This document shows, piece after piece, positions 20,888 through 37,066 of a stretch of 64,000 bases of DNA. A program made the position numbers and the translations under genes. This stretch comes from an uncultured SAR86 cluster bacterium (GTDB lineage Bacteria > Pseudomonadota > Gammaproteobacteria > Magnimaribacterales > Magnimaribacteraceae), in assembly GCA_902604855.1 (NCBI GenBank), contig CACLAF010000004.1:62001-126000 (forward strand), written 5' to 3'. Positions within the stretch are counted from its first letter, which is position 1, and each line of letters opens with the position of its first letter. The notes beneath the pieces are model-generated. The model was not told where the DNA came from, made no database searches, and worked only from the letters and a program-made list of their open reading frames with translations.

Positions 20888-20890
20888 TAT

Positions 20891-22438
20891 TTAGACGACT
20901 ATTTCAATCAAGCTTGGCCCATCTGTGTTAAGACCTTCTTGAAAGGATTTTTTAAATTCATCAACTGTTAGAGTTCTTTTAGCCGGTACCCCTAAAGATT
21001 TTGATAATGAAACCCAGTCAATCTCAGGATTGTCCATTGATAGCATGGATTTTGCCCTATCTCCTGTCTTAAGGGCACCAACTCTCTCCAATTCAACCTG
21101 TAAAATCGCATAAGATTTGTTGGAAAAAATAACATTCGTCACATTCAAACTTTCTCTAGCTTGAGTCCATAGAGACTGAATGGTGTACATGGCTCCCCCG
21201 TCCCCTTGAAGACATACTACTGGCCTATCTGGTGCAGCAACTGCAGCTCCAGTTGCTACTGGAATGCCTTGTCCAATTGAGCCACCTGTTATCGAGAGCC
21301 AATCACAAGGTTTGGCATCCCAAACATGAGAAGCAAAGATGAAACCCGAAGTTCCTGCTTCATTTGATACTATGGTATCTTCAGGAAGTAAACTTGCCAT
21401 TAATGGACCCAAATTATCTACTGACAAATCTCCACTTTGAGGAACATCAATGGCTCCAGAAGGTATGAATCTCTTATCAATTTTTTTACCTTTGCATAAA
21501 TCATTTAGACAATTAAGAGCATACTTACCATCTTGATAGACATTTGCGACTTCTATAAGTTTTGCTCCGTCAGGTGAAAGAAAGCTTTTTTTCCCAGGGT
21601 ATGCAAAAAACGATACGGGAGGTCTTGTACCTACAAAAACTATATTTTCTATCCCGGATAAATACTCCTCTGCCATTTCAGCGAAATAAGGTATATTTTG
21701 CACTTTAGTCAGCCCACAGCCTCTTCTATGTTTTTTTGTTAGAGTATCAGTAGCTAGCCTGCAGTTAGTTGCTGTAGCTATTTTTCCTGCCAAGGTAAGG
21801 GACTCTTCATCTAAAAAATCACCACCTAGAAAGAGCATTGACTGCTTGTTGGAACTTAAAGCTTTAAATGCCTCTTCAATTTTTTGATCATCCACCTTCT
21901 CAGGACCTTCAGCTTGCACTAGCGGACCTTCGCTATCTGTTTCACCCCATGCGCAGTCAGCAGGAACAATAATGGTTGAGATCTGACCTGGAAATTTATG
22001 AGCTTGTCTCCATCCTTCAGCCCCAACTAGACAAAGATCATTAGGACTTTCGCTTCTTCCTACCCAATCAGAACTGGCTTTGGCAAGACCGTCTAAATCA
22101 GATGTCAATGGTGCGTTATGTTGTAAATGATAGGTAGCATGATCACCGACAATATTTAACATAGGTGTAACTGCTTTTTTTGCGTTATGAATGTTTGGGA
22201 TAGCATTACCAAGCCCTGGGCCAAGGTGTAAAAGATTGGCAGCCGCTTTTCCTGATACTCTGGAGTAACCATCTGCAGCGCCAGAAACAACTCCCTCAAA
22301 CAAACCAAGAATTGGTCTAACTTCAGGATGGTGATCAATTGCAGCTACAAGATGCATTTCAGATGTCCCAGGATTTGCAAAAACAACTTCTAGACCGTTT
22401 TTGATAAGAGTTTTTAATAAGGCATCGGCAGCATTCAT
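20891..22438 (-). CDS. ThDP-dependent enzyme (acetolactate synthase large subunit/benzoylformate decarboxylase-like)
   Basis: A 515-residue thiamine diphosphate enzyme. The N-terminal Pyr domain has NPGTSEMHLVAAID and the catalytic glutamate E48 in GLFEGVVSG. The C-terminal PP domain has the GDGGAMYTIQSLWTQA motif with the later asparagine (IFSNKSYAIL). It is shorter than biosynthetic IlvB (about 570) and lacks an obvious ilvN partner, so it may be a 2-oxoacid decarboxylase or carboligase rather than a branched-chain enzyme. As the last gene of the nine-gene TetR-led run it could act late in the pathway. Substrate is not readable from the sequence. Confidence 0.82.
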   Translation of the reverse strand: MNAADALLKTLIKNGLEVVFANPGTSEMHLVAAIDHHPEVRPILGLFEGVVSGAADGYSRVSGKAAANLLHLGPGLGNAIPNIHNAKKAVTPMLNIVGDHATYHLQHNAPLTSDLDGLAKASSDWVGRSESPNDLCLVGAEGWRQAHKFPGQISTIIVPADCAWGETDSEGPLVQAEGPEKVDDQKIEEAFKALSSNKQSMLFLGGDFLDEESLTLAGKIATATNCRLATDTLTKKHRRGCGLTKVQNIPYFAEMAEEYLSGIENIVFVGTRPPVSFFAYPGKKSFLSPDGAKLIEVANVYQDGKYALNCLNDLCKGKKIDKRFIPSGAIDVPQSGDLSVDNLGPLMASLLPEDTIVSNEAGTSGFIFASHVWDAKPCDWLSITGGSIGQGIPVATGAAVAAPDRPVVCLQGDGGAMYTIQSLWTQARESLNVTNVIFSNKSYAILQVELERVGALKTGDRAKSMLSMDNPEIDWVSLSKSLGVPAKRTLTVDEFKKSFQEGLNTDGPSLIEIVV

Positions 22439-22480
22439 GGTAGTTTCGTTCGATATTTAATTAATCATTCTAGACTATTC

Positions 22481-23404
22481 TTATCCAGAAATATCTTTAA
22501 GTTCTTGTTCATAGTTTTTATAACTATCTTTTAAGAAAGCTTGGTTGAGTAAGCATTCTGCAACAAGAATATTCTCATTATCGTAAACGGAAGTCATACA
22601 CCAGTAAGTTTCAACTCTTTTACTTTGACTGAGTGCAATAATCTCCTTTTTAATTTGATATTCCTCATCCACGAAAAGAGGACCATTGAAGAGTTTAATT
22701 TCTTGATTAGCAAATAAACCAATAACTGGACCTTTGACTGAAAAATTGGACGGATTTCCTGAAAAGTTTGTTAAGACACTTATCATTTCAATTGGAATAA
22801 TAGGTTTTTTCCAGGGGGATTTGTTTCCATTTTCTTCCGTATACCATTCATCAAGTTCCGTAATAACCGCCAGCTTATCATTCAAAGTAAAGGGATAGAG
22901 ATCACCCATGTGTTGATCAAATCCCATCTTCACTTTTACTCTTTTATTACTCTTTAGTCCTTCCTTAATATCTGAAAGGATAACTAATTTTTCTGGCTTA
23001 TCTAATTTAGACATCAAGGAATCGAGCGCACTAGTTTCATGCTTTGGCCCTATTCCTGCCGTTCCCGAAAGAACATAAGTTCCATCTTCTTTTTCCATCC
23101 AGATGTCAGTGATTTTTGAATCTTTTTTTGGTAATTTAACAAATGCTTTAACTCTCTCACCTTCGAATACCATATTTTTATAATGTACGCTTATGCATCC
23201 ACTAATAAACCACTCATCTTTAAAGATTTTCTTTAATAATGGAACAAACTGACTTAGATGAGTGCAGCCTTCTATTGGTGCTCCAGAGAATCCAAGACTT
23301 TCAGCCATATCTTCGTCATGCAATGATTTATGACCATCATACTTTTGGTCATGAAGAAGTTGTTTTGGCTCTAAGAAATCACCACTTATGTAATCAATAA
23401 CCAT
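22481..23404 (-). CDS. hotdog-fold (MaoC-like) protein of unknown specificity
   Basis: A 307-residue protein I recognise only by fold. The HDEDMAESLGFSGAPIEGCT segment (about residues 28-47) is the hotdog-type binding loop, and ISGCISVHYKNMVFEGERV follows like the second strand of a MaoC domain. The length suggests two hotdog repeats. Such proteins hydrate or hydrolyse acyl-CoA thioesters. It sits 3 nt after the enoyl-CoA hydratase gene in the TetR-led run, consistent with CoA chemistry. It may be a hydratase or a binding protein; the catalytic residues are not clear. Confidence 0.6.
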   Translation of the reverse strand: MVIDYISGDFLEPKQLLHDQKYDGHKSLHDEDMAESLGFSGAPIEGCTHLSQFVPLLKKIFKDEWFISGCISVHYKNMVFEGERVKAFVKLPKKDSKITDIWMEKEDGTYVLSGTAGIGPKHETSALDSLMSKLDKPEKLVILSDIKEGLKSNKRVKVKMGFDQHMGDLYPFTLNDKLAVITELDEWYTEENGNKSPWKKPIIPIEMISVLTNFSGNPSNFSVKGPVIGLFANQEIKLFNGPLFVDEEYQIKKEIIALSQSKRVETYWCMTSVYDNENILVAECLLNQAFLKDSYKNYEQELKDISG

Positions 23405-23407
23405 TTT

Positions 23408-24205
23408 TTATTTATTTTTTAATCTAGCTGACTTGAAATCAGGCTCTCTTTTTTCAATGAAAGAACTTATGGCCTCTTTGTGCTCTTCAGTCGTGTAGCA
23501 TTCTTGCAATGCTTCTTGCTCTCTTTTTTGAATAAGCTCGATATCGGTTTCACTTCCATTAATACTTAGAAGTTCTTTAATATGTTTTATTGAAATTTGC
23601 GGGTTTTCGCCCATTGCCTTTGCATAGGAAATTGCTTCATTCATCAAATTCTCTTTATTTGTAACCCTGTCAATCAGACCCAATTCTTTAGCTTCCTTTG
23701 CAAGCAAGGTCCTTCCTGAGAGCATAATTTCACTGGCATTGCCAAAACCTACTCTTGTTTGGAGAAAATGGGAACTCGCCAGTTCTGGTACAAGACCCAT
23801 TTTAGAAAACCTCATGCTAAGCTTTGCTTCATCAGAGGCTAGTAGAAAATCCATAGGAAGAATCTTGGTTAGCCCAACTCCAATGGCTGCACCATTAACT
23901 GCAGCTACAGTAGGTTTTGACTTTCTAATTAGTTTTACCCAATTACTCATGATGTTACTATTTTCAACCTCCTTTCCTTCAGATTTTTTTTTGAAGAAAC
24001 CTTCTATATCAGCACCCGCACAGAATCCTCTTCCTTCTCCAGAAATTACTATTGCTGTAATATCCTCATCATTATTTGCTTGCACTATTGCATCTGTTAA
24101 TTCTCTTCCCATTAAAGGATTCCAAGCATTTAACTTTTCCGGTCTATTCATTTTTAAAACTTGTACAGTGTCAATTGTTTCCGTAATAATTGTTTCGTAT
24201 TTCAT
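23408..24205 (-). CDS. enoyl-CoA hydratase/isomerase family protein
   Basis: A 265-residue crotonase-fold protein. VLKMNRPEKLNAWNPLMG and the oxyanion-hole segment VISGEGRGFCAGADIEGF (about residues 52-69) are clear, and VAAVNGAAIGVGL supplies the second oxyanion-hole glycine. The residues near SKMGLVPE are consistent with an active hydratase or isomerase. It acts on cytoplasmic CoA thioesters. It lies between the transporter and the hotdog gene in the minus-strand run and probably takes part in beta-oxidation-like shortening of the catabolite. Confidence 0.88.
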   Translation of the reverse strand: MKYETIITETIDTVQVLKMNRPEKLNAWNPLMGRELTDAIVQANNDEDITAIVISGEGRGFCAGADIEGFFKKKSEGKEVENSNIMSNWVKLIRKSKPTVAAVNGAAIGVGLTKILPMDFLLASDEAKLSMRFSKMGLVPELASSHFLQTRVGFGNASEIMLSGRTLLAKEAKELGLIDRVTNKENLMNEAISYAKAMGENPQISIKHIKELLSINGSETDIELIQKREQEALQECYTTEEHKEAISSFIEKREPDFKSARLKNK

Positions 24206-24233
24206 TCTTTTTAATTCCTTAATTTTTATAAAT

Positions 24234-25631
24234 TTATGATTTACTAGCCATCCTTTTTACTTTTCTGTCTATGTAACCCCTAATTTTTATTTGTCTTTCT
24301 TCAGTTAGAGGGTATTTCCAAATAAAAGGAAGAGTAGATATCTTAAATAAACTTGGCACAACTGAGTACATTATCGCTAAACCTAAAATTGCTATATTGC
24401 TATTTCCATTAATTGTTTCTCTCAGAGATGGGTCTGCAGTAGGATCAAATCCAAACAAATCTATGACTGTAAGGGCAATAAATAGAGCAATTGCTGCAGC
24501 TCCTTTTTGAACAATTCCCCAAGCTGAAAAGTACAATCCTGACCTTTCTTGACCACTTCTGATGGTATCTATATCTATCACATCAGCTGCCATTGAAGTC
24601 GCCAGGAACACCAAAGCTCCAGAAGCCATACCTTTTAAAACTTGAAGGGTTAAGAAAAAGAATAAGGCTTGTTCAGGTACAAAGTAGAGTAGGGGCATGC
24701 AGAATGCCCATCCAGAAAACCAAAGTATAGAGTAGACTAAAGCTTTATGCTTACCAACTTTAGCGGCTATTCTTTTCCAAATTGGTATACATATTACAGA
24801 TGTGGCAATTGATAATAATATCGCGATAGAATAATAAGATTCAGCGTTTACTACATGCTTAACAAAAAAGAACGATAGTGCACCGTCCATAGAAATACCC
24901 AAAACACTCCCAGTAAAGCCAATAAGGATTCTGACGTATGGGCCATTCTTAAGAACAAATTTAAGGCTTCTAAAATATTCCCTGAGAGTTATCGCCTTCT
25001 TACGAAGACTTTGCGGAGGGTCATCTGGAACAAACCAAAACGCCCCAAATATAACTATTGGAATCGAAGAAATAACTACTATTGCCTCAAAGGTAAGTAT
25101 TGATTTCATTTCAACTATATCAAAATATGAAAGCAATATTGGAAGAGATACTGCAACAATTGTCCCTATATAACCAACCTGTTCCCTCAAAGCAGTGATT
25201 TTTGAGCGTTCATTATAGTCGCTCGATAATTCTGCTCCCCAAGAAGCAAAAGGAATTTGGATGATCGTAAAGGCAAGGTATATACCCATTATACTAAGCA
25301 GAAAATACACCAAGTCTGGTTGATTGGGAGGGATGAATAAAAAGTATGTAGAGATTGCAAGAAGAGGAGAACCTACCAATATCCAGGGTTTTCTTCTACC
25401 AAGGCTTATTTTTGTTCTATCGGATATTAGGCCAATCAAGGGATCTGTGAAGACATCAGATAATCTTGCTAGCATAAGAATAAAGCCCATACTTGCAAGG
25501 CTTAATCCTAATTCTCCATAAAGCGGAGGTATAAAAAGCACCAGAGGCAGGCCAACTACAGCTAAAGGAAAATTAATTGACGAGTAAAAGAATAATTGAG
25601 TCTTCTTTAGTTTAGATTCCTTTTCAGACAT
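24234..25631 (-). CDS. GPH-type MFS symporter
   Basis: A 465-residue transporter with twelve predicted helices. MARLSDVFTDPLIGLISDRT lies between helices two and three and holds the conserved aspartates of the glycoside-pentoside-hexuronide/cation symporter family; LGRRKPWILVG follows at the loop. It probably moves a solute across the inner membrane with H+ or Na+. The start is moved to ATG 25631, since an upstream GTG only adds one residue. In this run it is the only inner-membrane transporter, the natural partner of the divergent TonB receptor. Whether the substrate is a sugar is doubtful given the oxidative enzymes around it. Confidence 0.85.
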   Translation of the reverse strand: MSEKESKLKKTQLFFYSSINFPLAVVGLPLVLFIPPLYGELGLSLASMGFILMLARLSDVFTDPLIGLISDRTKISLGRRKPWILVGSPLLAISTYFLFIPPNQPDLVYFLLSIMGIYLAFTIIQIPFASWGAELSSDYNERSKITALREQVGYIGTIVAVSLPILLSYFDIVEMKSILTFEAIVVISSIPIVIFGAFWFVPDDPPQSLRKKAITLREYFRSLKFVLKNGPYVRILIGFTGSVLGISMDGALSFFFVKHVVNAESYYSIAILLSIATSVICIPIWKRIAAKVGKHKALVYSILWFSGWAFCMPLLYFVPEQALFFFLTLQVLKGMASGALVFLATSMAADVIDIDTIRSGQERSGLYFSAWGIVQKGAAAIALFIALTVIDLFGFDPTADPSLRETINGNSNIAILGLAIMYSVVPSLFKISTLPFIWKYPLTEERQIKIRGYIDRKVKRMASKS

Positions 25632-25654
25632 CACGAATTTTTTAATCTTGAGAT

Positions 25655-26803
25655 TTATTCTTGCATAAATTCATGCAACCTCTCATATCCTTCAATGAAA
25701 TCTTTTTTAAATTCTTGAACCACATCGCTGGCTGAAATACTGTGTTTTAAGAGACCTACTCCTTGACCAACCCAGTAGGTGACAAGTTCCTTGGCCCCTT
25801 CATGTCCACCTTCAGCAAGCTTAAAAGCTTTTATTAGTGGAGGGTCAGTAACCATAGTTTGAAGTGGCATAGGTAATGGTTCAAGAGCATCTGGAGCTTC
25901 CCAGGCCTCTGTCCAAGAAGACACTAATTGTCTTGAATGTTTTCCTGTTCTGCTTTTAGATCTTATTGTTTGGTTAGAGTTCGCTGCAATCATTTTTTCC
26001 TTTAAGACAAGTGGTAATTCTGATTCTATTGTTGTGAGCCAAACCGATCCACACCATGCACCAGCAGCACCCATGGCCATTGCAGCAGCCATTTGCTGAC
26101 CATTCATTATTCCTCCAGCCGCTAGTATCGGAATGTCACCATATGGCTTTACAGCTTCGAAAATTTCTGGAACGAGAACCATTGTACTTACATCTCCTGT
26201 GTGTCCACCTGCTTCTGTTCCAGAGGCAATTAGAAGATCAACCCCCGCTTCTGCTTGTTTTACGGCATGCTTTGAAGATCCAATCATGGCACCAACTTTA
26301 ATTCCTTTCTCCTTAGCTAATTCTAGAAGCCAAAAGGGAGGTACACCTAAAGCATTCACTATTAATGAAATAGGATGTGTCAGAGCAATATCAACTATAT
26401 TCTTGGAGCCTTCTTCCTTAGTATTTTTCGCTAAACCCATCCCCCTTTCGTCATCATGTTCAAAAGACCTAAAATCTGAGCCATCTATACCATGCTTATC
26501 TAGTATGTCAGCTCTAAAATCGCCATATTCTTTTGGAATCATTGCCTTAAGTTTTTCTGAATCAAAATCTTCATCCTGTGCAAGTGATTTATTTGGTATA
26601 AGCAGATCAACCCCATAAGGCTTTCCACTTATTTGGTCATCAATCCATTTGAGATCTATTTCAAACTGCTCAACCGAGAGACCTCCTGCCGCGTAAACAC
26701 CAAATCCACCTGCTTTTGAAACAGCCACAACCACATCTCTGCAATGTGTAAATGCAAATAAAGGGAATTCAATATCAAACATTTTTGTAAGCTGCGTATT
26801 CAT
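25655..26803 (-). CDS. nitronate monooxygenase/2-nitropropane dioxygenase-like flavoprotein
   Basis: A 382-residue TIM-barrel FMN enzyme. SGTEAGGHTGDVSTMVLVPE (about residues 194-213) and IPILAAGGIMNGQQMAAAMA hold the FMN phosphate-binding glycines, and the AGGFGVYAAGG element is near the start. Relatives oxidise alkyl nitronates or act as NADH:quinone reductases; annotation as a nitronate monooxygenase is common but often untested. It lies between the GMC oxidoreductase and the transporter (10-nt gap from GMC). With two nitroreductase-family sequences in the block, nitro chemistry is conceivable but not shown. Confidence 0.82.
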   Translation of the reverse strand: MNTQLTKMFDIEFPLFAFTHCRDVVVAVSKAGGFGVYAAGGLSVEQFEIDLKWIDDQISGKPYGVDLLIPNKSLAQDEDFDSEKLKAMIPKEYGDFRADILDKHGIDGSDFRSFEHDDERGMGLAKNTKEEGSKNIVDIALTHPISLIVNALGVPPFWLLELAKEKGIKVGAMIGSSKHAVKQAEAGVDLLIASGTEAGGHTGDVSTMVLVPEIFEAVKPYGDIPILAAGGIMNGQQMAAAMAMGAAGAWCGSVWLTTIESELPLVLKEKMIAANSNQTIRSKSRTGKHSRQLVSSWTEAWEAPDALEPLPMPLQTMVTDPPLIKAFKLAEGGHEGAKELVTYWVGQGVGLLKHSISASDVVQEFKKDFIEGYERLHEFMQE

Positions 26804-26813
26804 CTATATATCC

Positions 26814-28439
26814 TTAATTGATTGCATGTATATGATCAGAGATTTTTTCCGCGATCATCATGGTCGGGGCATCTGTGTTTCCCCCTATTAGGGTAGGCAT
26901 GAGTGAAGCATCAACAACTCTCAAGCCATTTACTTTTCTTACTTGTCCATATTCATTAGTCACAGCCATTTCATCCATTCCCATTTTGCAAGTGCCGACC
27001 GGGTGATAAAGAGTTTCTGCAGTATTTCTAATATATTCATCTAAAGAATTATCATCTGTAATATCAAGATTTTCTTTTGGCCGGATTCTCACACCACGAT
27101 ATTCATCAAACGCTTCTTGCATGAAAATCTCGTGTGCCACTCTTAATCCATTTCTAGTGTCTACAAGGTCCTGTTGTTCGGAGAAATAATTAGGATAAAT
27201 TAATGGGGGATCTTCTGGATCTTTACTTCTCAGAGTAACGTAGCCTCTGCTTTGTGGTCTTAAGGTGTAAAGACCTACTGCAAATCTATGATCTTTTGGA
27301 ATACCTTCTCTGCCATGATCATCGTCTAAAGCGACAGATACATAAAATAACTGTAGATCAGGAATATCTTTTTCCGGACTTGATTTAAGAAAAGCTCCTG
27401 CTCCACAAGGTGGATTGGCAGCGTCACCTTTTCGAAAAAATAGATATTGTAGTCCTGCCAATGCCATTCTTACTCTAGATGCCGATCTATGGAGTGTAAC
27501 TGGTTTAATTGATTCAAATTGTGTAGAAACAGCAATATGATCTTGTAAATTTTTACCAACACCTTCGAGATTACATAAAGTTTTTATTCCAAGATTTGAG
27601 AGCTCGCTAGTGTCTCCTATTCCGCTTCTCATCAGTATCATAGGGGAGCAAAGAGCTCCACTACATAAGATAATTTCTTTGTTTGCAAAAGCGGTAAAAT
27701 TCTTCCCTTTTTTTTGAAATTCAATTCCTATAGCCTTCTTACCATCCATTATGACTTTATCCACAGTCACATTTAGTTGCGTTTCCAGATTTTTTCTTTT
27801 GAGGGCTGGATGAAGATAGGCTTTTGAGGCACTGCATCGGCTTGCTCCTAACATAGTATGTTCATATCGTGAAACCCCTTCTTGGTATTTTCCATTAAAA
27901 TCTTCCGTAAAAGGATGGCCTGCTTGTTGGCCCGCCTCAATGAACTTATCTAGCAGTAAATCATCCGTTCTTTTTGCCCTCGTAACCGAAAGAGGTCCAT
28001 CAAAACCATGATATTCGGAGGAATTTTCACCTTGAAAAGATTCTGATTTTTTAAAATATGGCAGTACATCCTCGTAAGACCAACCAGAATTACCTAACTG
28101 CCCCCAAAGATTATAATCAAATGCATGACCTCTAATATATATCATTCCATTGATCGATGATGAGCCTCCCCATCCTTTGCCCCTAGGCCAATACATTTTC
28201 CTATTAGACAATCCTTCCTGTGCTTGCGTTTCGTATGCATAGTTATACTTATTTGCTCCTGAAACTAGCTGCGAGTAACCTGAAGGCATATTTATAAATA
28301 GACTTTTATCTTTGCCACCACTCTCCATTAATAAAACATTATTTTTTGTGTTTTCTGTAAGTCTGTTTGCCAATACACAACCTGCACTGCCTGCTCCAAC
28401 AATTATATAATCTGGGTAATTTTGGTCGCTACTTTTCAT
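26814..28439 (-). CDS. GMC family (choline/alcohol dehydrogenase-like) oxidoreductase
   Basis: A 541-residue FAD enzyme when started at ATG 28439. The ADP-binding motif IIVGAGSAGCVLANRL lies at residues 12-27, the GMC signature GKGWGGSSSINGMIYIRGH follows, and the C-terminal catalytic histidine is in LYHPVGTCKMG with VVDASLMPTLIGGN after it. It oxidises a primary or secondary alcohol and passes electrons to a quinone or oxygen. An upstream TTG-rich extension (to 28457) would overlap the SCP2-like gene and has no family support. Downstream of the enolase-superfamily enzyme, it could oxidise a hydroxylated intermediate. Confidence 0.9.
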   Translation of the reverse strand: MKSSDQNYPDYIIVGAGSAGCVLANRLTENTKNNVLLMESGGKDKSLFINMPSGYSQLVSGANKYNYAYETQAQEGLSNRKMYWPRGKGWGGSSSINGMIYIRGHAFDYNLWGQLGNSGWSYEDVLPYFKKSESFQGENSSEYHGFDGPLSVTRAKRTDDLLLDKFIEAGQQAGHPFTEDFNGKYQEGVSRYEHTMLGASRCSASKAYLHPALKRKNLETQLNVTVDKVIMDGKKAIGIEFQKKGKNFTAFANKEIILCSGALCSPMILMRSGIGDTSELSNLGIKTLCNLEGVGKNLQDHIAVSTQFESIKPVTLHRSASRVRMALAGLQYLFFRKGDAANPPCGAGAFLKSSPEKDIPDLQLFYVSVALDDDHGREGIPKDHRFAVGLYTLRPQSRGYVTLRSKDPEDPPLIYPNYFSEQQDLVDTRNGLRVAHEIFMQEAFDEYRGVRIRPKENLDITDDNSLDEYIRNTAETLYHPVGTCKMGMDEMAVTNEYGQVRKVNGLRVVDASLMPTLIGGNTDAPTMMIAEKISDHIHAIN

Positions 28440-28440
28440 T

Positions 28441-28860
28441 TTATAAAGTAAAAGCAACCATTCGATTATGAAATTCAGTTATATAACTTGGACTAGATGC
28501 CAAATCACCTTCTACCTTTTCATATGGATCAGGATCTCTTTTTGGTGGATTTTCTGAGTATTCTTTGATTAATTCAGGCGTATAAAAAATGTAGGCACTT
28601 TTCAATGCAGAAGCATAACTTGCCTGAATTTTCACATCAGCACTTTCATACTGACCTAGATTTACTTGAGCTGATTTTCCATCAATCAAAATATGGTAGT
28701 AAACAAAACCATTCTCATCCGAGATTTCTGTGGGAGATTCTGCTAAAGCTTCAGAGACGCTAAATCTTTTACCTTCTTCTCCATTTTTACCTACTATATC
28801 TTTTAAAACAGAGTCAGCTTTTTTTATCCATTCTTTGCTCAAGAAAACTACTTTCGTCAT
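28441..28860 (-). CDS. small SCP2-like protein of unknown function
   Basis: A 139-residue soluble protein, no signal peptide or membrane segment. The segment VNLGQYESADVKIQASYASA resembles the middle of SCP2 sterol-carrier domains, where a DVxI strand precedes a helix, but the match is weak and the domain is short. SCP2-like proteins bind hydrophobic ligands such as sterols or acyl-CoA. It lies between the enolase-superfamily enzyme and the GMC oxidoreductase with gaps of 12 and 1 nt. A carrier for a hydrophobic pathway intermediate is a reasonable guess only. Confidence 0.5.
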   Translation of the reverse strand: MTKVVFLSKEWIKKADSVLKDIVGKNGEEGKRFSVSEALAESPTEISDENGFVYYHILIDGKSAQVNLGQYESADVKIQASYASALKSAYIFYTPELIKEYSENPPKRDPDPYEKVEGDLASSPSYITEFHNRMVAFTL

Positions 28861-28872
28861 TTGTATTATTTT

Positions 28873-30072: not shown

Positions 30073-30077
30073 TGATT

Positions 30078-30698
30078 CTAGTTACTAGATTGAACTAAAT
30101 TTATTAATTTAAACGTTTGACTTAGCATTTTTTGAGAAGACTCAACTAAATTAAATCTTCCACCGGATCTTATCCATGCCTCTGTATTGTGGGTATTAGT
30201 GGTATAAATTAAATTGGCAATTAACTTGGGCATTAAGTCTTTCTCTTTATCCATTGATAGGTCCAATGCGATGTTGAACTTCAAGATTTCAATGTATTCA
30301 TTTCCAATAGCAAGTTGAAGTTGTGTAAGTTGTTCGCTTTGGGAAAGACTGTCAACCGTTTCAAGAAAAAACTCACCTTGTTCGAAACTAGATATTTCTT
30401 CTGCTTTTTCTAAGACGTATGATTTCCAGATTTCAAAGGTATCAATTTTGCGATTTTTCATTAATTCCCTCAAAGCTTCACAAGAGGCAGAGGAGGCCAG
30501 AGAGAATTTTGTTGGAAAGTGTTTATAGAGAGTTTGAACATGGATTCCAGCTTCATCGGCGACATTCTGCATTGTTAGGTTTCTGTAGCCATTTTCGTTG
30601 AGAAGTCTATTACAAGTTTTTACTAATACCGCTCTGGTATTATTTCTTCTCTTTTCTCTGAGAGGATAAATTTTTTTTGTATTAACGATTTGTGTCAT
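30078..30698 (-). CDS. TetR/AcrR family transcriptional regulator
   Basis: A 206-residue repressor. The N-terminal helix-turn-helix reads NLTMQNVADEAGIHVQTLYKHFPTKFSL (about residues 39-66), with YKHFPTK as the classic TetR recognition-helix ending. The C-terminal part is the ligand-binding helical domain, dissimilar to well-known members. It lies at the hinge between the divergent TonB-receptor gene and the nine-gene minus-strand run that it heads, and probably represses both. A palindromic AT-rich site is in the 110-nt gap. The inducer may be the pathway substrate. Confidence 0.9.
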   Translation of the reverse strand: MTQIVNTKKIYPLREKRRNNTRAVLVKTCNRLLNENGYRNLTMQNVADEAGIHVQTLYKHFPTKFSLASSASCEALRELMKNRKIDTFEIWKSYVLEKAEEISSFEQGEFFLETVDSLSQSEQLTQLQLAIGNEYIEILKFNIALDLSMDKEKDLMPKLIANLIYTTNTHNTEAWIRSGGRFNLVESSQKMLSQTFKLINLVQSSN

Positions 30699-30719
30699 CT
30701 TTATAAACTTAACTATTAG

Positions 30720-30749
30720 GTATAGAAACTATATTAATATATCATATAC
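30720..30749. promoter_or_regulatory. candidate TetR operator in the divergent promoter
   Basis: TATATTAATATA (30730-30741) is a perfect 12-bp palindrome flanked by GTATA (30720-30724) and TATAC (30745-30749). This nested symmetric site sits between the TetR and TonB-receptor starts. AT-rich sequence makes short palindromes easy to find, so binding is unproven. Confidence 0.45.
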
Positions 30750-30808
30750 TATTAGCAAAAATAATTAACATAAACTCTGTTTCTAATTTTTAACACTGGG
30801 GAAAAAAA

Positions 30809-33115
30809 ATGAATAAAGTAATCAAAATCTTTTACATGTTGTTATTAGGAACAACAGTAAGCTTTTTTCAGGCAGATGAATCTAATGAAGAATCTGCAGA
30901 AGAATCAATTGATGAAGTTATAGTAACAGCAACCTATAGAGAAACGAATCTTATGGATACTGCTGTATCTATGACCGTCATTTCCGATGATCTGGCTGAG
31001 AATATGGGCGCTCAAAGTATGGAAGGCCTCCATACAGCAGTTCCAGGTTTAACAATGACTGGTAGCTCAAATGGCACAAATAGATATTCTATAAGAGGGA
31101 TTTCATCTCAATCTGGAGAGAATGTATATCAATTAACTGGAGCATCTGTAGGCGTGTATATTGATAATGTGCCTGTTACTTCAGCAATGGGACCAAATAG
31201 GCAATCTAACGGAGTGCTTTTTGATATTAATAGAGTAGAGGTTCTTAAAGGGCCGCAGGGAACTCTATTTGGAGAAGGATCTCAAGGAGGAACTATAAGA
31301 TTTATCTATAATCAGCCTGATTTATCTGGACTTGATTATGCTTATAATACATCTATTGCTTCAATGGATGAGGCTGATGATCTGGCCGCAAGAATTGATT
31401 TTATGGTTAATATGCCTTTAAATGATAATTCCGCAATTCGCTTAGTTGGTTGGTCTTCGGCAACGCCAGGATTCATCGATAATTTTAATCCTGTTGAGGA
31501 TGATATAAATTCTGCAGAATCAAATGGATTAAGAGCTACACTACTTTATGAGGTAGATGAAACTTTGTCATTAACTGCGACTTATCACCATTCTTCACAA
31601 GAATCTGATGGAGCTGAGAGTACAACTGAGGCGTTTGTTTCTAATGCCGTTAGATATCCTGGTGTCACACCAATGTCTGAAGATGCAACTGATATTTTTA
31701 GTTTAGTGATAGAAAAAGATTTAGGTTGGGCAGAATTTACATCAATTTCATCTTATACAGATCGTGAACTAAATGAAATCCAAGAAGGACCTGCATCAAC
31801 TCTTGCAGTATTTGATTTTTATTATAACGGGTCAGGAGAACCTGGAACTTCAGATCATCCTTACTGTGCTGCAGGAGCTGCTTTTGGCCTATGCCCAGGG
31901 TTTCCAGGACTTTATAATCTTACTTTAGGAGCAGGGACAACGATAGGTGATGGATATAATCTGCAAGCTGCCAATAGTTACAACGACTATATAAGTGAAA
32001 GAAAAACTCAAGAATTTAGACTAGTTTCCCCTGCTGATGAACGCTTGAGATGGACAGTAGGTGCTTTCTGGAAAGATAGTGAAGAAGATATCAAATCGCA
32101 ACAAAAGGCAGCTTACTACCCTGATAGAGAAGCTGTAGTCAAGCCTTTAATGGACCCTTTATGGGTGGTTCCAGCAAATACTCATGTTGACTCCTTAGAA
32201 GAAACAGCCTTTTTTGGTGAATTGAGTTACAACATTATAGAAAACCTGGAGGCAACAGTAGGGTTTAGGACTTCTGATCTAGAGCAATCTTTTACAACAT
32301 CGACAGTGGGTACAGATGATTCTCCAACTTCAGAAAAGTTTGTACTATCTTGGACAGCTTCTGATGATTTGTTGATTTACGGAAGTTACGCAAGTGGTTT
32401 CAGAATAGGAAACTTTGATAATGGACTGCTAAATTCAATTCAGCAATACGAAGGCTTTGCCGGCACTGGACCGACAACTGATGCTTTGAGGCAGTCCTTA
32501 CTTTTTGAAGGTGATGAACTTGAAAATGTCGAGCTAGGAGTTAAAACTACTTTGATGGATGGAATGGTTATGATTCAAGCTTCAGTTTATCAAATGGATT
32601 GGAATGATATGATTCAATTAGTGGCCAATCCCTTAAATCCTGGTCAGTTCTATAATGATAATAGTGGTGGAGCTGAAATAGATGGCGCTGAACTGGATAT
32701 AACAGCCTATGTTACTGATCGTCTGACTATGAGATTGGCTGCTGACTATAATGATTCTGAAGTTTTATCAGCTGATGGAACATCCGTTACCGAATTAGTT
32801 TATGCTCCAGATGAAAGTTTTTATGTCTCCATGGATTATTCTTTCCCCACAGATAATTCTTGGTCAGTTGATATGCATCTAGATTTCTCCGAGGTTGCAG
32901 AGCAATATGGAGATGTAGCTAACACAGTGATTATCCCGAAATATAATTTATTAAATGGAAGAGTTACTCTTCGTAGCCCAGACCAGAAGTGGAGGGTTGC
33001 TATGTTCTCAACAAATATGGCCGGTAAAGAGATACAAAGAGGAAAGGATACTCTTGGGAATCTCTACTGGTTTAATCCAAAACAAATTGGTCTTGAGTTC
33101 GGTTATAATTTTTAG
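30809..33115 (+). CDS. TonB-dependent outer-membrane receptor
   Basis: A 768-residue receptor with a signal peptide (about residues 1-21), a TonB box (EVIVTATY, about 36-43), a plug domain (SMTVISDDLAE through RVEVLKGPQGTLFG and SQGGTIRF), and a large barrel ending in Phe. The plug motif EVLKGPQGTLFGEG is typical of the receptors in sphingomonads and SAR86 that take up organic substrates. No iron-siderophore marker is visible and the operon is oxidative, so an organic ligand is more likely than iron (inference). A GGGGA ribosome site precedes ATG 30809. No TonB/ExbBD is in the window. Confidence 0.95.
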   Translation: MNKVIKIFYMLLLGTTVSFFQADESNEESAEESIDEVIVTATYRETNLMDTAVSMTVISDDLAENMGAQSMEGLHTAVPGLTMTGSSNGTNRYSIRGISSQSGENVYQLTGASVGVYIDNVPVTSAMGPNRQSNGVLFDINRVEVLKGPQGTLFGEGSQGGTIRFIYNQPDLSGLDYAYNTSIASMDEADDLAARIDFMVNMPLNDNSAIRLVGWSSATPGFIDNFNPVEDDINSAESNGLRATLLYEVDETLSLTATYHHSSQESDGAESTTEAFVSNAVRYPGVTPMSEDATDIFSLVIEKDLGWAEFTSISSYTDRELNEIQEGPASTLAVFDFYYNGSGEPGTSDHPYCAAGAAFGLCPGFPGLYNLTLGAGTTIGDGYNLQAANSYNDYISERKTQEFRLVSPADERLRWTVGAFWKDSEEDIKSQQKAAYYPDREAVVKPLMDPLWVVPANTHVDSLEETAFFGELSYNIIENLEATVGFRTSDLEQSFTTSTVGTDDSPTSEKFVLSWTASDDLLIYGSYASGFRIGNFDNGLLNSIQQYEGFAGTGPTTDALRQSLLFEGDELENVELGVKTTLMDGMVMIQASVYQMDWNDMIQLVANPLNPGQFYNDNSGGAEIDGAELDITAYVTDRLTMRLAADYNDSEVLSADGTSVTELVYAPDESFYVSMDYSFPTDNSWSVDMHLDFSEVAEQYGDVANTVIIPKYNLLNGRVTLRSPDQKWRVAMFSTNMAGKEIQRGKDTLGNLYWFNPKQIGLEFGYNF

Positions 33116-33128
33116 ATAATTATATTTT

Positions 33129-34022
33129 ATGTCGGAAGCTACAAAAAAGATGGATAAGAGAGAGCCGATAGTGGTTCCGCCTATAGATAATCTACTTTAT
33201 GACACCAATCCTCCTGAAGTTATTTCAGATGAATTGAGGCCGGTGCTTGAAGATCTTGGTTTAGTTGATGTTTGCCATAAGCTTGCTAAAGAAGGATGGG
33301 CTGTTATTGAAGATGCTGCTTCGCCAGAATTTAACGAACGTCTTAGGAATGCAATTATAGACTCTGTGGACGGACTAGATACTGTAGCGGCATCTCCAGC
33401 TAAGGCTGCTGGGAAAAATATGAATCTTCGAGAAGATCCAGTATTTGGTGAAGCGGCTCTCAATCCAAAAATCTTAGCTGTTGCTGAATTTTCAGTTGGC
33501 AGAGGCTTCCTCTTTAGTCAAATGACAACTTCTGTGAAGTGTCAGGGAGCAAAAGGAATAGCATTGCACTGTGATAATAATTGGCTACCTGCCCCGTTTC
33601 CTGAGCATAATATGATAACGACTTTTTGTTGGGCTTGTGATGATTTCAACAAAGAGAATGGAGCAACTTCCGTCATCCCTGGTACGCAAATTCTCAAAAG
33701 ACATCCTAATGAAGAAGAATCTAATGATCTTGGAGGTTCTGTTGCAATAGAGTGTTCAGCAGGGTCGATTGCACTTTGGGACGGTAATATTTGGCATGCT
33801 GCTTATGATCGAGATACCCCTGGCGCAAGAGTAGTAGCGCACATGAGTTATAGCCGTCTAGCAATGCGACCCGTAGAGGATTACTCGAATGAAGCTGATA
33901 TGTTAATTGAAAGACATGGAGGCAGAATGGCGCAATTGTTGGGCAAGGAAGACGCACTTTTTGAATCTGAAGGGTTTGGATATACACAGATGATTCCTAC
34001 ATTCAATAACGCTAAGCGTTAA
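33129..34022 (+). CDS. phytanoyl-CoA dioxygenase (PhyH) family protein
   Basis: A 297-residue Fe(II)/2-oxoglutarate oxygenase. The iron-binding facial triad is H147-C-D149 (ALHCDNNW) and H223 (NIWHAAYD), with R234 (PGARVV) placed to bind 2-oxoglutarate, so it looks catalytic. PhyH proteins hydroxylate acyl-CoA or free hydrophobic substrates; substrates of marine members are mostly unknown. It is encoded 13 nt after the TonB receptor and before the esterase and the Baeyer-Villiger enzyme, so it may install a hydroxyl on the imported compound. Confidence 0.9.
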   Translation: MSEATKKMDKREPIVVPPIDNLLYDTNPPEVISDELRPVLEDLGLVDVCHKLAKEGWAVIEDAASPEFNERLRNAIIDSVDGLDTVAASPAKAAGKNMNLREDPVFGEAALNPKILAVAEFSVGRGFLFSQMTTSVKCQGAKGIALHCDNNWLPAPFPEHNMITTFCWACDDFNKENGATSVIPGTQILKRHPNEEESNDLGGSVAIECSAGSIALWDGNIWHAAYDRDTPGARVVAHMSYSRLAMRPVEDYSNEADMLIERHGGRMAQLLGKEDALFESEGFGYTQMIPTFNNAKR

Positions 34023-34069
34023 TAATAAAAAGCTATTTATTGCGCTTTAGATTTTTTACAGATAAAAAT

Positions 34070-35242
34070 ATGGAAATAAACGGACACTGTGACGAAAATT
34101 TTTCTTCAGTTATAAAAGTTTTTGAAGACAATTTTAAAAATCACGATGAAGTTGGCGCTTCTTTTGCTGCATCTGTAGAAGGAGAGATGGTTGTGGATAT
34201 ATGGGCCGGTCATCTTGAAAGAGAAAAAATTAATCCCTGGAATTCAGACACAATAGTCTCGACTGCGTCTATTACAAAAACTATGGCAGCCATAAGTGCT
34301 TTAATATTAGCTGATAAGGGTGAGTTGGACCTTGATGCACCAGTAATAGATTATTGGCCTGAATTCGCGGTCAATGGCAAAGAACATGTCTTAGTGAAAC
34401 ATTTTTTATGCCATTCAGCAGGCTTACCAGGCCTGAGCAAACAGTATAAATTAAAAGAGATGATGGATTGGGATTTGATGTGTTCTGATTTAGCCAGTCA
34501 GAAGTTGTGGTGGAATGCTGGAGAAAAATGCGGCTATCACACTATGACTTCGGGTTTTCTTATAGGAGAGGTTATCAGAAGAGTATCTGGAAAGACTGTG
34601 GGAGCTTATTTCAATGACGAAGTTTCTTCAAAACTAGATGCTGAATTCTATATAGGAACTCCTGAAGAGCATCATCATAGAGTAGGGAACATGATTCCAC
34701 CGCATGCAGGCGAAATGGAATCCATCGAAGAGTTGAATCATCATTTAGATTTTACCCCTGGCTCTGTAAATATGAGGGTAATGGAAAATTATGACTTTGA
34801 AGAGGACCATCAAGCAATCATGGCCACACCAGAATGGTGGAAGGCGGAAATTCCAGCAGGTAATGGAATGAGTAATGCTCGTGGAGTAGTTAGAGCTCAA
34901 ACAGCTATAGCAAATAAAGGTAAAGCTTTTGGAGTACAACTTATTTCAGAGGAAACTTGCAAAAGAGCAAATGAAGTACAAATTTCTGGTATAGATGAAT
35001 TGATTGGTATTCCTATGACTTATTGCATGGGCTATGCTCAAAGAGATGAACCTTTCGGTGTTTTTGGAGATCCAAAGACTACTATCCATTGGGGTGGTAA
35101 TGGGGGATCCTCAGTCGTCATTGATATAGAAGCTAAACTGTGTTTTTCATATGTCATGAATCGAATGTCTGGCCAAATGTTAGGCGATAAACGTGCGAAT
35201 AATCTCGGATATGCCTTATACGAAGGTTTAAATCCTAATTAA
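34070..35242 (+). CDS. serine hydrolase of the beta-lactamase/family VIII esterase type
   Basis: A 390-residue cytoplasmic hydrolase. The nucleophile motif S67-I-T-K70 (SxxK), the Y156-H-T motif in the place of Y-x-N, and a late HWGGNGGS element replace the class C beta-lactamase KTG triad, as in family VIII esterases. I start at ATG 34070 because the family begins with an IxGxCD-type segment (MEINGHCDENF); the upstream TTG (34040) adds ten unlikely residues. There is no signal peptide, unlike true beta-lactamases. Directly upstream of a Baeyer-Villiger monooxygenase (5-nt gap), it probably hydrolyses the resulting ester or lactone (inference). Confidence 0.87.
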   Translation: MEINGHCDENFSSVIKVFEDNFKNHDEVGASFAASVEGEMVVDIWAGHLEREKINPWNSDTIVSTASITKTMAAISALILADKGELDLDAPVIDYWPEFAVNGKEHVLVKHFLCHSAGLPGLSKQYKLKEMMDWDLMCSDLASQKLWWNAGEKCGYHTMTSGFLIGEVIRRVSGKTVGAYFNDEVSSKLDAEFYIGTPEEHHHRVGNMIPPHAGEMESIEELNHHLDFTPGSVNMRVMENYDFEEDHQAIMATPEWWKAEIPAGNGMSNARGVVRAQTAIANKGKAFGVQLISEETCKRANEVQISGIDELIGIPMTYCMGYAQRDEPFGVFGDPKTTIHWGGNGGSSVVIDIEAKLCFSYVMNRMSGQMLGDKRANNLGYALYEGLNPN

Positions 35243-35247
35243 AGGAC

Positions 35248-37047
35248 ATGGGCAATCAAGTTTATACCGAAGAAAAACTTAAAGAGGTAAGAAGGAAATA
35301 TCTCGAGGAAAGAGATAAACGACTGAGACCAGATGCTAATCAACAATGGCATGAAACATCAGGTGATTTTTCTTATTTTGTAGAAGATCCCTACGTAGAG
35401 CACAAAGAATCTAGAGATGCTTTCAATAAAAAGCACCAAGTTGTAATAATAGGAGCTGGGTTTGGCGGCATGTTGGCAGCTGCCAGGCTTATTGAGGCAG
35501 GTTTTGATGATATTTTAATTATTGAGAAAGCAGGAGGTTTTGGTGGAACTTGGTATTGGAATCGATATCCTGGAGCTTATTGTGATGTCGAATCATATGT
35601 ATATTTGCCTATGCTTGAGGAGACGGGCTTTATTCCAAAAGAGAAATACACAAATGCGACAGAATGTCTGGAATATTGCAATATCTTAGCTAGAAAATAT
35701 GGATTGTTTGAAAAAACAATTTTCCAAACAGAAGTTGTTTCAAATCAATGGAAAGAAGAGACGAAAGAATGGTTAGTAGAAACAGATAGGCAAGATAAAA
35801 TTTCAGCACAGTATGTTGTCCATTCCAATGGTCCTTTAAATAGACCTAAACTTCCGGGAATTAAGGGCATAAATGATTTTCGTGGTCATACATTTCACAC
35901 AAGCAGATGGGATTATGAATACACTGGAGGAAGCCATTCAGGCGACCTATCTAATCTAAAAGATAAATGCGTAGCAGTAATTGGAACTGGTGCAACAGCC
36001 ATTCAATGTATACCTCATATTGGTTCCTCAGCTAAAGAACTCTATGTATTTCAGCGAACTCCTTCAGCAGTGGATATAAGAAACAATAGTTTGACCGATG
36101 TTAACTGGCTTCAAAATCAGGAACCGGGATGGCAAGCAAAGAGAAGAAGAAATTATGAATCGATTATTAGTGGTTTACCTGTAGAAGAGGATCTTGTAGA
36201 TGATGGATGGACAGAAGCTTTCAAAGATCTATTTGCATTTATGCAAGATAGTGAACTTTTGAAATCAGGTGCTGATGGTATAGGCAAGGCTATGGAAATT
36301 GCAGATCTAAAGAAGATGGAAAAAATAAGAAAGCTTGCTTCCGATCTGTTGGAAGATCAAGAAACAGCTGAAAATCTAAAACCTTACTATAGATGGCTTT
36401 GTAAAAGACCTTGTTTCAATGATGACTACTTAAAAACATATAATTTACCCAACGCTCATCTAGTAGATACAAATGGTAAGGGAGTAGATGAGATCACCCC
36501 AAAAGGAATAGTTGCAAATGGAATTGAATATAAAGTTGATTGTATTGTTTTTGCTACTGGCTTCGAAGTGGGTACTGATTACACGCGAAGGGCAGGCTAC
36601 GATATTTTTGGTAGAGATGGGCTGCCGATAGAAGATAAATTCAGTATGACAAAAGGCTATGAGTCACTGTTTGGTTTGCACGCAAAAGAATTCCCTAATG
36701 CATTCTTTTTTGGAATTGGACAAACAGGTTTCTCCTCTACCTATACATACGCTCTAGACGAACAGGCAATTCACTTAGCTTATATATTAAAAAAGGCGGA
36801 AGAAAGGGGAGCAGTAACAATAGAACCGAACCAAGAATCTATAGACGAATGGGTCCGAACAATAATTGAGAAAGCACGTATTTCTAAGGAATTCCAAGAA
36901 CAATGTACGCCTGGGTATTACAATTTAGAGGGTGCTGTCAACCAATTACCACAAAATAATACTTATGGTGGGGGTCCTATAGAATTTTTTGATCTTATGG
37001 AAGAGTGGAGAAGTGAAGGAAGCCTCAAAGGACTTGAACTCAAATAA
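35248..37047 (+). CDS. Baeyer-Villiger (class B flavin) monooxygenase
   Basis: A 599-residue FAD/NADPH monooxygenase. The first Rossmann motif GAGFGG is near residues 69-74, the second GTGATAIQ near 246-253. Between them lies the type I Baeyer-Villiger fingerprint FRGHTFHTSRWD (F211, G213, H217, W221, D222), which distinguishes these enzymes from ordinary flavin monooxygenases. It inserts oxygen next to a ketone to give an ester or lactone. A long N-terminal extension before the FAD domain suits the cyclohexanone/steroid-type members. A good AAAGGA ribosome site precedes ATG 35248. The next esterase-ready product is expected to meet the preceding gene's hydrolase. Confidence 0.92.
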   Translation: MGNQVYTEEKLKEVRRKYLEERDKRLRPDANQQWHETSGDFSYFVEDPYVEHKESRDAFNKKHQVVIIGAGFGGMLAAARLIEAGFDDILIIEKAGGFGGTWYWNRYPGAYCDVESYVYLPMLEETGFIPKEKYTNATECLEYCNILARKYGLFEKTIFQTEVVSNQWKEETKEWLVETDRQDKISAQYVVHSNGPLNRPKLPGIKGINDFRGHTFHTSRWDYEYTGGSHSGDLSNLKDKCVAVIGTGATAIQCIPHIGSSAKELYVFQRTPSAVDIRNNSLTDVNWLQNQEPGWQAKRRRNYESIISGLPVEEDLVDDGWTEAFKDLFAFMQDSELLKSGADGIGKAMEIADLKKMEKIRKLASDLLEDQETAENLKPYYRWLCKRPCFNDDYLKTYNLPNAHLVDTNGKGVDEITPKGIVANGIEYKVDCIVFATGFEVGTDYTRRAGYDIFGRDGLPIEDKFSMTKGYESLFGLHAKEFPNAFFFGIGQTGFSSTYTYALDEQAIHLAYILKKAEERGAVTIEPNQESIDEWVRTIIEKARISKEFQEQCTPGYYNLEGAVNQLPQNNTYGGGPIEFFDLMEEWRSEGSLKGLELK

Positions 37048-37066
37048 TCAATTTAATTATAAATTT

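Follow-up and report, generated by a model that had tools for sequence, protein, structure and literature searches.

The window analysed here, a 64,000-nucleotide stretch of the draft genome of an uncultured SAR86 cluster bacterium (G000) of a kind common in the sea, contains a compact set of enzyme, transport and regulatory genes. This raises the question of whether the genes form one unit, what that unit may do, and how it came to lie in this genome, the last of which bears on how small genomes acquire whole pathways. With moderate confidence, we read the locus as a horizontally exchanged, TetR-controlled catabolic island for a hydrophobic compound.

Organization of the module

The initial annotation had described 13 genes in a TetR-centred divergent module, and the ORF list of the window confirms all of them with their coordinates and strands, namely nine on the minus strand and four on the plus strand. 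The tight packing claimed for the minus arm (gaps of 1-42 nt) is borne out as well, the measured intergenic gaps being 42, 3, 28, 20, 10, 1, 12 and 5 nt; the value of 1 nt holds if ATG 28439 is taken as the start of the GMC gene (the TTG start of the ORF tool, at 28457, gives a 17-nt overlap with the next gene). The divergent TetR and TonB receptor genes are separated by 110 nt. A Pfam family was assigned to 11 of the 13 genes, while the 307-aa protein HD307 and a 139-aa protein are matched neither by Pfam (threshold E 0.001) nor by NCBIfam (1e-5). The features of the locus are as follows.

17232-18581, plus: carotenoid/lignostilbene-type oxygenase (CCO, RPE65 family; Pfam RPE65, E 1.8e-121); putative left crossover within
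18596-20227, plus: AMP-forming acyl-CoA ligase (AMPlig; Pfam; NCBIfam PRK07798, 600 bits, cut-off 543); within the putatively imported segment
20231-20887, plus: nitroreductase-family gene (NTR), intact copy (Pfam Nitroreductase)
20891-22438, minus: ThDP enzyme (TPP), PRK07586 family, last minus-arm gene (Pfam; NCBIfam PRK07586)
22481-23404, minus: 307-aa double-hotdog protein (HD307), hydratase-2/MaoC-like predicted fold; no Pfam or NCBIfam match
23408-24205, minus: enoyl-CoA hydratase/isomerase (crotonase, ECH) family (Pfam ECH_1, E 1.6e-53)
24234-25634, minus: MFS_2/GPH-like cation symporter (Pfam MFS_2, E 1.3e-75; 169 bits under the GPH model, whose cut-off is 231)
25655-26803, minus: nitronate-monooxygenase/FabK-type FMN oxidoreductase (NMO; Pfam NMO, E 9.7e-45)
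26814-28439, minus: GMC (choline-dehydrogenase-like) FAD oxidoreductase (Pfam GMC N and C; PRK02106)
28441-28860, minus: 139-aa protein; no Pfam, NCBIfam or PDB sequence match
28873-30072, minus: enolase-superfamily MR/MLE enzyme (Pfam MR_MLE_C, E 3.8e-37)
30078-30698, minus: TetR-family regulator (Pfam TetR_N, E 1.2e-10)
30721-30733, no strand: candidate TetR operator TATAGAAACTATA between the arms, conserved in an otherwise diverged gap
30809-33115, plus: TonB-dependent outer-membrane receptor (Pfam plug and barrel)
33129-34022, plus: PhyH-family Fe(II)/2-oxoglutarate oxygenase (Pfam PhyH, E 6.2e-18; HxD at residue 147 by motif scan)
34040-35242, plus: beta-lactamase-fold serine esterase/hydrolase, LipL-like (Pfam, E 5e-54; SxxK, as SITK, at residue 77; LipL model below cut-off)
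35248-37047, plus: type I Baeyer-Villiger monooxygenase (BVMO; FxGxxxHxxxWD at residue 211; NF045818; PDB 5mq6)
37077-37247, plus: decayed 3'-end relic of a second nitroreductase gene, adjoining the amidohydrolase gene (nucleotide match to the G023/G024 gene)
37252-38892, minus: amidohydrolase (AmiH; Pfam); putative right crossover within
About 17900-37900 (approximate edges), no strand: segment putatively exchanged by homologous recombination (identity steps in the CCO and AmiH genes; conflict between the AMPlig and ACAD trees)

One CoA-ligase gene, AMPlig, thus sits within the putative segment and outside the 13 genes.

Enzyme families and proposed function

The BVMO carries FRGHTFHTSRWD at residue 211, which fits FxGxxxHxxxW(P/D), the pattern we take to be the type I Baeyer-Villiger fingerprint, and Rossmann motifs at residues 69 (GAGFGG) and 246 (GTGATA). 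Over nearly its whole length it resembles its best PDB sequence match, 5mq6 (430 bits), presumably a polycyclic ketone monooxygenase, and the PtlE neopentalenolactone D synthase model NF045818 (699.4 bits), yet the latter score lies below the equivalog cut-off of 1100. At least two more BVMO homologues, about 60% identical, are encoded on contig 13 of the same genome; the BVMO is therefore not unique to the module.

On its score against PRK07586 (663.5 bits, curated cut-off 363), TPP belongs to this ThDP family, with acetolactate synthase activity putative; its best solved chains are benzoylformate decarboxylases. The GMC enzyme exceeds the cut-off of the choline-dehydrogenase-like subfamily PRK02106 (652.3 bits, cut-off 605) and falls under that of the betA equivalog (567.8 bits, cut-off 732.1). 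For NMO, the best solved chain is the FabK-type reductase 5gvh, and the FabK equivalog cut-off is missed. The MR/MLE enzyme is placed in its superfamily by Pfam; all ten NCBIfam models listed for named MR/MLE enzymes score under their cut-offs. It has KTK at residue 168 and D/E/H positions that look intact by eye, which we take to be the enolase-superfamily residues; 2oo6, matched at 294 bits, has KTN at the place of KTK.

HD307 is predicted to adopt a double-hotdog fold of the hydratase-2/MaoC kind. The catalytic motif of such proteins is, as we understand it, GD-x-NP-x-H; the equivalent stretch of HD307, placed by eye in alignments A1 and A4, reads GHxSxHD, with the His retained and the Asp substituted. 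The 139-aa protein might, at a guess by eye, be SCP-like; its AF2 model is unusable (pLDDT 40.7).

From these families we infer that the module oxidatively degrades a hydrophobic compound by way of a ketone; the BVMO subgroup invites the guess of a terpenoid, a sterol fragment or a similar bulky ketone. The TonB receptor and the symporter would import the compound, PhyH and the GMC enzyme would hydroxylate and oxidize it to a ketone, and the BVMO would turn the ketone into an ester or lactone, to be opened by the beta-lactamase-fold esterase. The acid would then be activated with CoA, the co-imported AMPlig being a candidate ligase, and its chain might be shortened via the crotonase, the double-hotdog hydratase, the FMN oxidoreductase, the MR/MLE enzyme and the TPP enzyme. 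TetR would repress both arms until released by the substrate or an intermediate. The initial annotation had carried the pathway from import to central metabolism, a reach that is conjectural: the family scan points to neither a CoA ligase nor a thiolase in the set of 13, although AMPlig lies within the putative segment.

An alternative is that the genes take up and alter a siderophore or a signal compound, or detoxify, and do not serve carbon catabolism. Detoxification is often under the control of TetR regulators, and the best NCBIfam model of the TonB receptor is siderophore-type, at 99 bits under a cut-off of 223.5. The crotonase, the hydratase fold, the FabK-like reductase, the ThDP enzyme and the neighbouring CoA ligase nevertheless suit degradation, and no iron-release or efflux gene occurs among the 13 by family names; we consider this alternative unlikely.

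A second carrier and a candidate operator

In another draft genome of the order, G020, 17 ORFs of contig 16 match the window in order, 15 of them whole and the outermost pair truncated where the contig stops (both carriers are about 82-83% complete). Shared gene order in relatives was the check that had been set beforehand, its lack counting against the module; since G020 has the same order, that objection falls away, and because it is a separate assembly, the arrangement is more than chance. Nucleotide identity between the carriers is 74-92% over the module genes, except for the TetR gene (60%) and the 139-aa gene (71%), and is mostly 74-77% on the minus arm. The window's TetR is 58% identical to its G020 copy. 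Between the carriers, dS is 0.36-0.95 on the plus arm and runs from 1.54 to saturated on the minus arm. The lower plus-arm values suggest that the arms have partly separate histories and have not always travelled as one.

The divergent gap contains TATAGAAACTATA, a 13-bp inverted repeat conserved amid diverged surrounding sequence. In both carriers exact copies occur only at the module: one in G000 and two in G020, of which one sits between the divergent arms and the other ahead of the enzyme arm, in the 110-nt TetR-MRMLE interval; reversed controls gave 0. TATAGAAACTATA is matched in six of 224 loci, all six being the module itself. Looser forms show no enrichment: with up to one mismatch, TATAGNNNCTATA has 3 matches in the window versus 3.15 expected (one exact match, at 52395, lies outside the module), and a 15-mer with up to two mismatches has 1 versus 0.40 expected, a count reached in 31 of 100 shuffles. 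The case for the motif depends on exact copies that occupy corresponding sites in the two draft genomes. Scans for promoter-like (29 versus 53.7 in shuffles) and terminator-like sites (11 versus 12.9) were left unused because the counts are not above those of shuffles.

The initial interpretation stands in part. Control of both arms by the single TetR, with TATAGAAACTATA as its candidate operator, gains support from the two divergent operons around the gene, the repeat in their common gap and the second exact copy ahead of the G020 enzyme arm; the 13-bp site makes the idea testable. That the arms are separate systems, adjacent by chance, would accord with the difference in dS and with related BVMOs found elsewhere in the family without module neighbours. 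Against this, markers of both arms co-occur in the same two of 203 genomes of the order, and exact TATAGAAACTATA stands ahead of both arms in G020. We judge chance adjacency to be improbable.

Distribution of the module

The markers HD307 and MR/MLE have convincing matches in two of 203 genomes of the order (G000 and G020) and are absent from five close relatives of G000 (G022, G023, G024, G028 and G029). In a class sample, MR/MLE was matched at E<=1e-70 in one of 369 genomes, its own. The 139-aa protein is found in four of 35 family genomes, i.e. G000, G020 (69%), G003 (39%) and G004 (37%), with other surroundings in the last two, and its profile matches two of 398 in a phylum sample, the own genome and G871.

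Among the 21 of 35 family genomes in which the locus was read, eight have no insert, 11 have TPP only (one of them without AmiH) and two have TPP with the module. The locus holds alternative gene content between conserved flanks, as in replacement flexible genomic islands. The 13 genes had been taken as one unit, which needs amending: 12 genes and TPP form the arms, but 11 of the relatives read have TPP at this position and no module, and the unit that appears to have moved is larger (about 17.9-37.9 kb).

No conserved set of the 13 genes emerged beyond SAR86 in the loci covered. Among the best 80 of 577 confirmed hotdog-protein loci, only L097, G020's own contig, has the module. In these best 80 loci (4-21 kb, L097 included), genes at >=30% identity comprise ECH in 16, BVMO and TonB in five each, GMC in three, TPP in two, MFS_2, NMO, the 139-aa gene, MR/MLE, TetR and the esterase in one each, and PhyH in 0. 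A sphingomonad or plasmid origin was likewise rejected, since the 15-20 highest-ranking plasmid records listed for MR/MLE, NMO, TPP and BVMO are 30-49% identical. None of 12 opened plasmid loci (eight from those lists and four for the 139-aa and hotdog proteins) has the set, as judged by annotation, with BLAST for L088 only.

Probable import at the locus

Over 9.7 kb of the window (44052-53768), G000 is 93-95% identical in nucleotide sequence to the five close relatives and 76% (second piece, 70%) to G020. These relatives have nitroreductase and amidohydrolase genes 4 bp apart and no module. Against G024, G023 and G029 in 100-nt bins, identity on the left is 89-98% at 17.2-17.9 kb, 80-86% at 17.9-18.4 kb and 69-80% at 18.4-18.7 kb; on the right it is 73-83% at 37.05-37.45 kb and climbs to 96-100% at 38.05 kb. 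The edges are also seen in 250-nt bins, and nucleotide divergence is raised at both boundaries, as is looked for in replacement islands. Between the module and AmiH, positions 37077-37247 match the 3'-terminal 173 nt of the G023/G024 nitroreductase gene at 78% over the full length (E 4.6e-36), with all three forward frames broken and the 4-nt spacing to AmiH as in the native locus; among nitroreductases, it is closest to that of the close relatives without the module. This stretch is the scar of a decayed nitroreductase tail.

The intact NTR is 83% identical to that of G020 and 75-76% identical at the amino acid level to those of the five close relatives. In the AMPlig tree (20 rows, midpoint-rooted), G000 groups with G020 (100/100) and G006 (92/92), apart from 12 same-genus rows (93/97), while in the ACAD tree (18 rows, G020 absent) it groups with G023, G024, G028 and G029 (90/95); fork supports of 90-92 in these trees are moderate. 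The TPP tree joins G000 and G020 (100/100), with their position among genera without resolution. An unrooted FastTree concatenation placing both beside g6 was set aside because it mixed genes from inside and outside the segment.

By these comparisons, a segment of roughly 20 kb (module, AMPlig and NTR) is mosaic relative to the close relatives, with edges within two conserved genes, and seems to have entered recently from another, more distant lineage via homologous recombination. The gain is traceable because G000 has the block and five relatives, 93-95% identical to it over 9.7 kb, do not, with recombination edges visible. Among the genomes searched, no near-identical cluster or donor was found, the only other carrier being G020. 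Insertion by a mobile element was rejected, as family scans and the ORF list reveal no integrase or transposase among the segment genes. A tRNA-Arg at 38996 lies outside the segment, where the DNA is 95-99% identical to that of close relatives, and a phage-integrase-family gene (41680-42591) occurs in relatives as well.

If the common ancestor of the genus already carried the module and most lineages later dropped it, the locus having diverged in no more than the ordinary way, the shared position of the module in G000 and G020 would follow, and the minus-arm divergence does resemble that of the backbone stretch. Pure loss, however, leaves the mosaic flanks unexplained, as well as the clean 4-bp junction in the five module-less relatives, the unlikeness of their AMPlig and NTR to those of G000, and the closeness of the relic to their nitroreductase; we find this history quite improbable. 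An assembly or binning chimera, conceivable for a draft of 24 contigs (83% complete) whose identity to its sisters shifts within genes, is very unlikely, given that G020 has the same arrangement on one contig, the CCO and AmiH frames stay open across both edges, the shift is gradual, extending across several hundred bases, and the relic retains its native spacing to AmiH.

Relation to known systems

Exchange of an island by homologous recombination thus remains the reading we prefer. Replacement flexible genomic islands of aquatic prokaryotes, as described by Lopez-Perez et al. (2014, PMC4033161), are exchanged in this way, typically carry genes for exposed cell structures and have a link to phages. 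The SAR86 island is like these in its variable content between conserved flanks and its raised boundary divergence; it differs in encoding enzymes and transport, and in that the shared module is mostly 74-92% rather than near identical. Steroid and aromatic catabolism has been predicted across SAR86/Magnimaribacterales (PMC11582366), in genomes that likewise combine TonB receptors with genes for the breakdown of hydrophobic ring compounds. The gene sets described there (tesI-type, hsaA,C,D, fadD3, kshA and kstD) are unlike the present module, and a word search of the main text finds 'Baeyer' and 'genomic island' 0 times each.

A bolder version of the island reading is doubtful: that the locus is a complete TetR-gated uptake and Baeyer-Villiger pathway for a polycyclic or terpenoid ketone, spreading between SAR86 lineages as a cassette by fixed-site homologous recombination at the nitroreductase gene, with the arms re-exchanged separately and a hydratase family of altered catalytic motif.

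Plasmid pLA3 of Novosphingobium pentaromativorans US6-1 offers a partial parallel. MR/MLE, GMC, NMO, MFS_2 and the hotdog protein have no BLAST match in the pLA3 cluster, which differs in gene order and strands, with P450 and SDR genes instead. It does carry genes for 139-aa-like (32%), BVMO-like (31%), PhyH (31%) and serine hydrolase (24%) proteins, with TonB receptor and annotated TetR genes within 30 kb.

Gene content and proposed pathway

The initial annotation had placed a TetR-centred divergent module of 13 genes at 20891-37047, and an ORF check confirmed every gene at its claimed coordinates and strand. According to family scans, the minus arm comprises, in transcription order, TetR, MR/MLE, a 139-aa protein, GMC, an NMO/FabK-like protein, an MFS_2 symporter, crotonase, a 307-aa protein and a ThDP enzyme (TPP), while the plus arm comprises a TonB receptor, PhyH, a beta-lactamase-fold esterase and a Baeyer-Villiger monooxygenase (BVMO). 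The signature motifs of BVMO, esterase and PhyH were all found in a motif scan, and the MR/MLE enzyme gives an end-to-end alignment with 2oo6. The 307-aa protein (22481-23404; loci L097-L176) belongs to a widespread predicted double-hotdog family with at least 577 confirmed relatives, which has no match in Pfam or NCBIfam and carries GHxSxHD where the hydratase-2 motif is usual.

The genes may plausibly form a catabolic pathway. Import of a hydrophobic compound would fall to the TonB receptor and symporter, and PhyH and GMC would form a ketone from it; BVMO would then yield an ester or lactone to be opened by the esterase, and the resulting acid would be processed by the CoA ligase, crotonase, hotdog hydratase, FMN oxidoreductase, MR/MLE and TPP enzymes. 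The nearest solved BVMO structure is 5mq6, a polycyclic-ketone enzyme, and bulky ketones are for this reason our guess at the substrates. A carotenoid-oxygenase gene (17232-18581) adjoins the CoA ligase in the relatives' loci that reach that far, with or without the module; speculatively, the oxygenase products might serve as input to a ketone pathway. Steroid and aromatic catabolism has been predicted for SAR86 (PMC11582366); a word search of that article's main text found neither 'Baeyer' nor 'genomic island'.

Distribution of the module and state of the locus

Besides the window's draft genome (G000; 1.36 Mb, 24 contigs), only G020, a congeneric genome, was found to have the module, which there lies on a contig of 20,125 bp. 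Among 203 genomes of the order, these two carry both minus-arm markers (the 307-aa protein and MR/MLE); a third match to the 307-aa protein, in G074, has E 9.4e-4 across 87 residues only. Esterase matches at E<=1e-40 occur in 130 of the 203, with identity above 90% in G000 and G020 only; the next full-length match is at 40%, and partial matches reach 46%. BVMO homologues of a different group (pieces 55-69% identical) are present in 26 of 35 family genomes, G000 among them, and had unlike surroundings in the ten regions opened. A second BVMO of G000 (contig 13, L183:8782-10665), 58% identical and with relatives in 26 of the 35 family genomes, adjoins a 205-aa gene of TetR size.

No publication on such gene combinations was found by word search of the open-licence PMC literature. 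An Acuticoccus plasmid (L095:2173-4957) has adjacent genes annotated as nitronate monooxygenase, double-hotdog and enoyl-CoA hydratase, a minor part of the module, arranged differently. An independent cluster on pLA3 of Novosphingobium pentaromativorans US6-1 (L088) combines TetR, TonB receptor, BVMO-like, PhyH, serine hydrolase and 139-aa-like genes with P450 and SDR genes.

The module position was read in 21 of the 35 family genomes:

TPP and module: 2 (G000, G020)
Nitroreductase (NTR), TPP, then amidohydrolase (AmiH), without module: 11 (G011, G012, G013, G017, G018, G021, G025, G030, G031, G033, G034), AmiH being missing in G030
Neither TPP nor module: 8 (G005, G006, G008, G022, G023, G024, G028, G029)

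In several genomes TPP lies elsewhere; in G029, for example, L069:8155-16309 holds alcohol dehydrogenase, TPP and acyl-CoA dehydrogenase, then a metallo-beta-lactamase-fold gene and thiolase. The amidohydrolase gene of G022 (L219:1340-2976) is broken into two frames.

Evidence for a probable import

Over 44052-53768, identity of the window is 93-95% with G022, G023, G024, G028 and G029, and 76-78% with G020, G021 and G033 in the longest matches (70-73% in second pieces). The module is missing from the locus in the five close relatives, and both markers are absent genome-wide from all five, including G029, a single contig of 95% completeness. In 250-nt bins against G023, G024 and G029, identity is 88-99% at 13.0-18.0 kb, as far as the loci reach, and falls to 66-79% over the greater part of the CoA ligase and NTR. 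Past NTR, no counterpart exists until BVMO ends; identity then climbs within AmiH to 95-99% at 38.0 kb. In midpoint-rooted trees, where supports near 90 are moderate, the CoA ligase of G000 groups with G020 (100/100) and with the g4 genome G006 (92/92), outside 12 same-genus rows, and the acyl-CoA dehydrogenase just beyond the segment, in a tree without G020, groups with G023, G024, G028 and G029 (90/95).

The 171 nt between BVMO and AmiH are 75-78% identical to the last 173 nt of NTR in G023, G024, G028 and G029; the match runs end to end, spacing to AmiH is unchanged and all 3 forward frames are broken. With an intact NTR on one side and this relic on the other, the insert is therefore bracketed by NTR sequence. 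This would fit a history in which the insert recombined through NTR into a lineage that had the TPP-less NTR-AmiH arrangement and the larger segment was transferred afterwards, the order of the two steps being itself conjectural. TPP would have come in with the module in G000, though it stands module-free in other genomes. The G008 nitroreductase (L220:6820-7476) shares 88% identity with the window copy, compared with 75-80% for the same-genus copies read and 84% for G020, hinting at a g4-like donor.

On this sequence evidence the module appears to be a mosaic island acquired recently. Replacement islands are exchanged by homologous recombination, with divergence at their boundaries (PMC4033161); the present island looks like a variant of this known kind of genome flexibility, carrying catabolic cargo.

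Divergence of the two arms

Synonymous divergence of G000 from G020 ranges from 1.54 to saturation for CoA ligase, NTR and TPP as well as for the minus arm, and is lower in the plus arm (TonB 0.89, PhyH 0.36, esterase 0.95, BVMO 0.88). Base composition offers no simple reason for this difference, with GC3 at 0.20-0.31 across the minus arm and at 0.24-0.30 across the plus arm. Most probably the plus arm was exchanged between lineages later on.

A candidate operator

Little of the divergent gap is conserved between G000 and G020 beyond the stretch around GTATAGAAACTATAT. The 13-mer TATAGAAACTATA, two 5-bp arms flanking AAA, has one exact copy in the G000 draft and two in the G020 draft, and reversed-pattern controls gave 0 in each. 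The second G020 copy lies inside the TetR-MR/MLE gap, which is 110 nt there vs 5 nt in the window. Among 224 loci, the motif matched in 6, each the module itself. Looser searches of the window show no enrichment (3 matches vs 3.15 expected for TATAGNNNCTATA with at most one mismatch; 1 vs 0.40 for the 15-mer with two mismatches), so the operator case rests on exact copies at matching places in both genomes. These copies strengthen the earlier proposal of one repressor, and are the best evidence that a single regulator may control both arms through this candidate site. Outside the module, 52395-52407 contains one of the three TATAGNNNCTATA matches, an exact one, TATAGATTCTATA, an inverted repeat with the candidate-operator arms and a different spacer.
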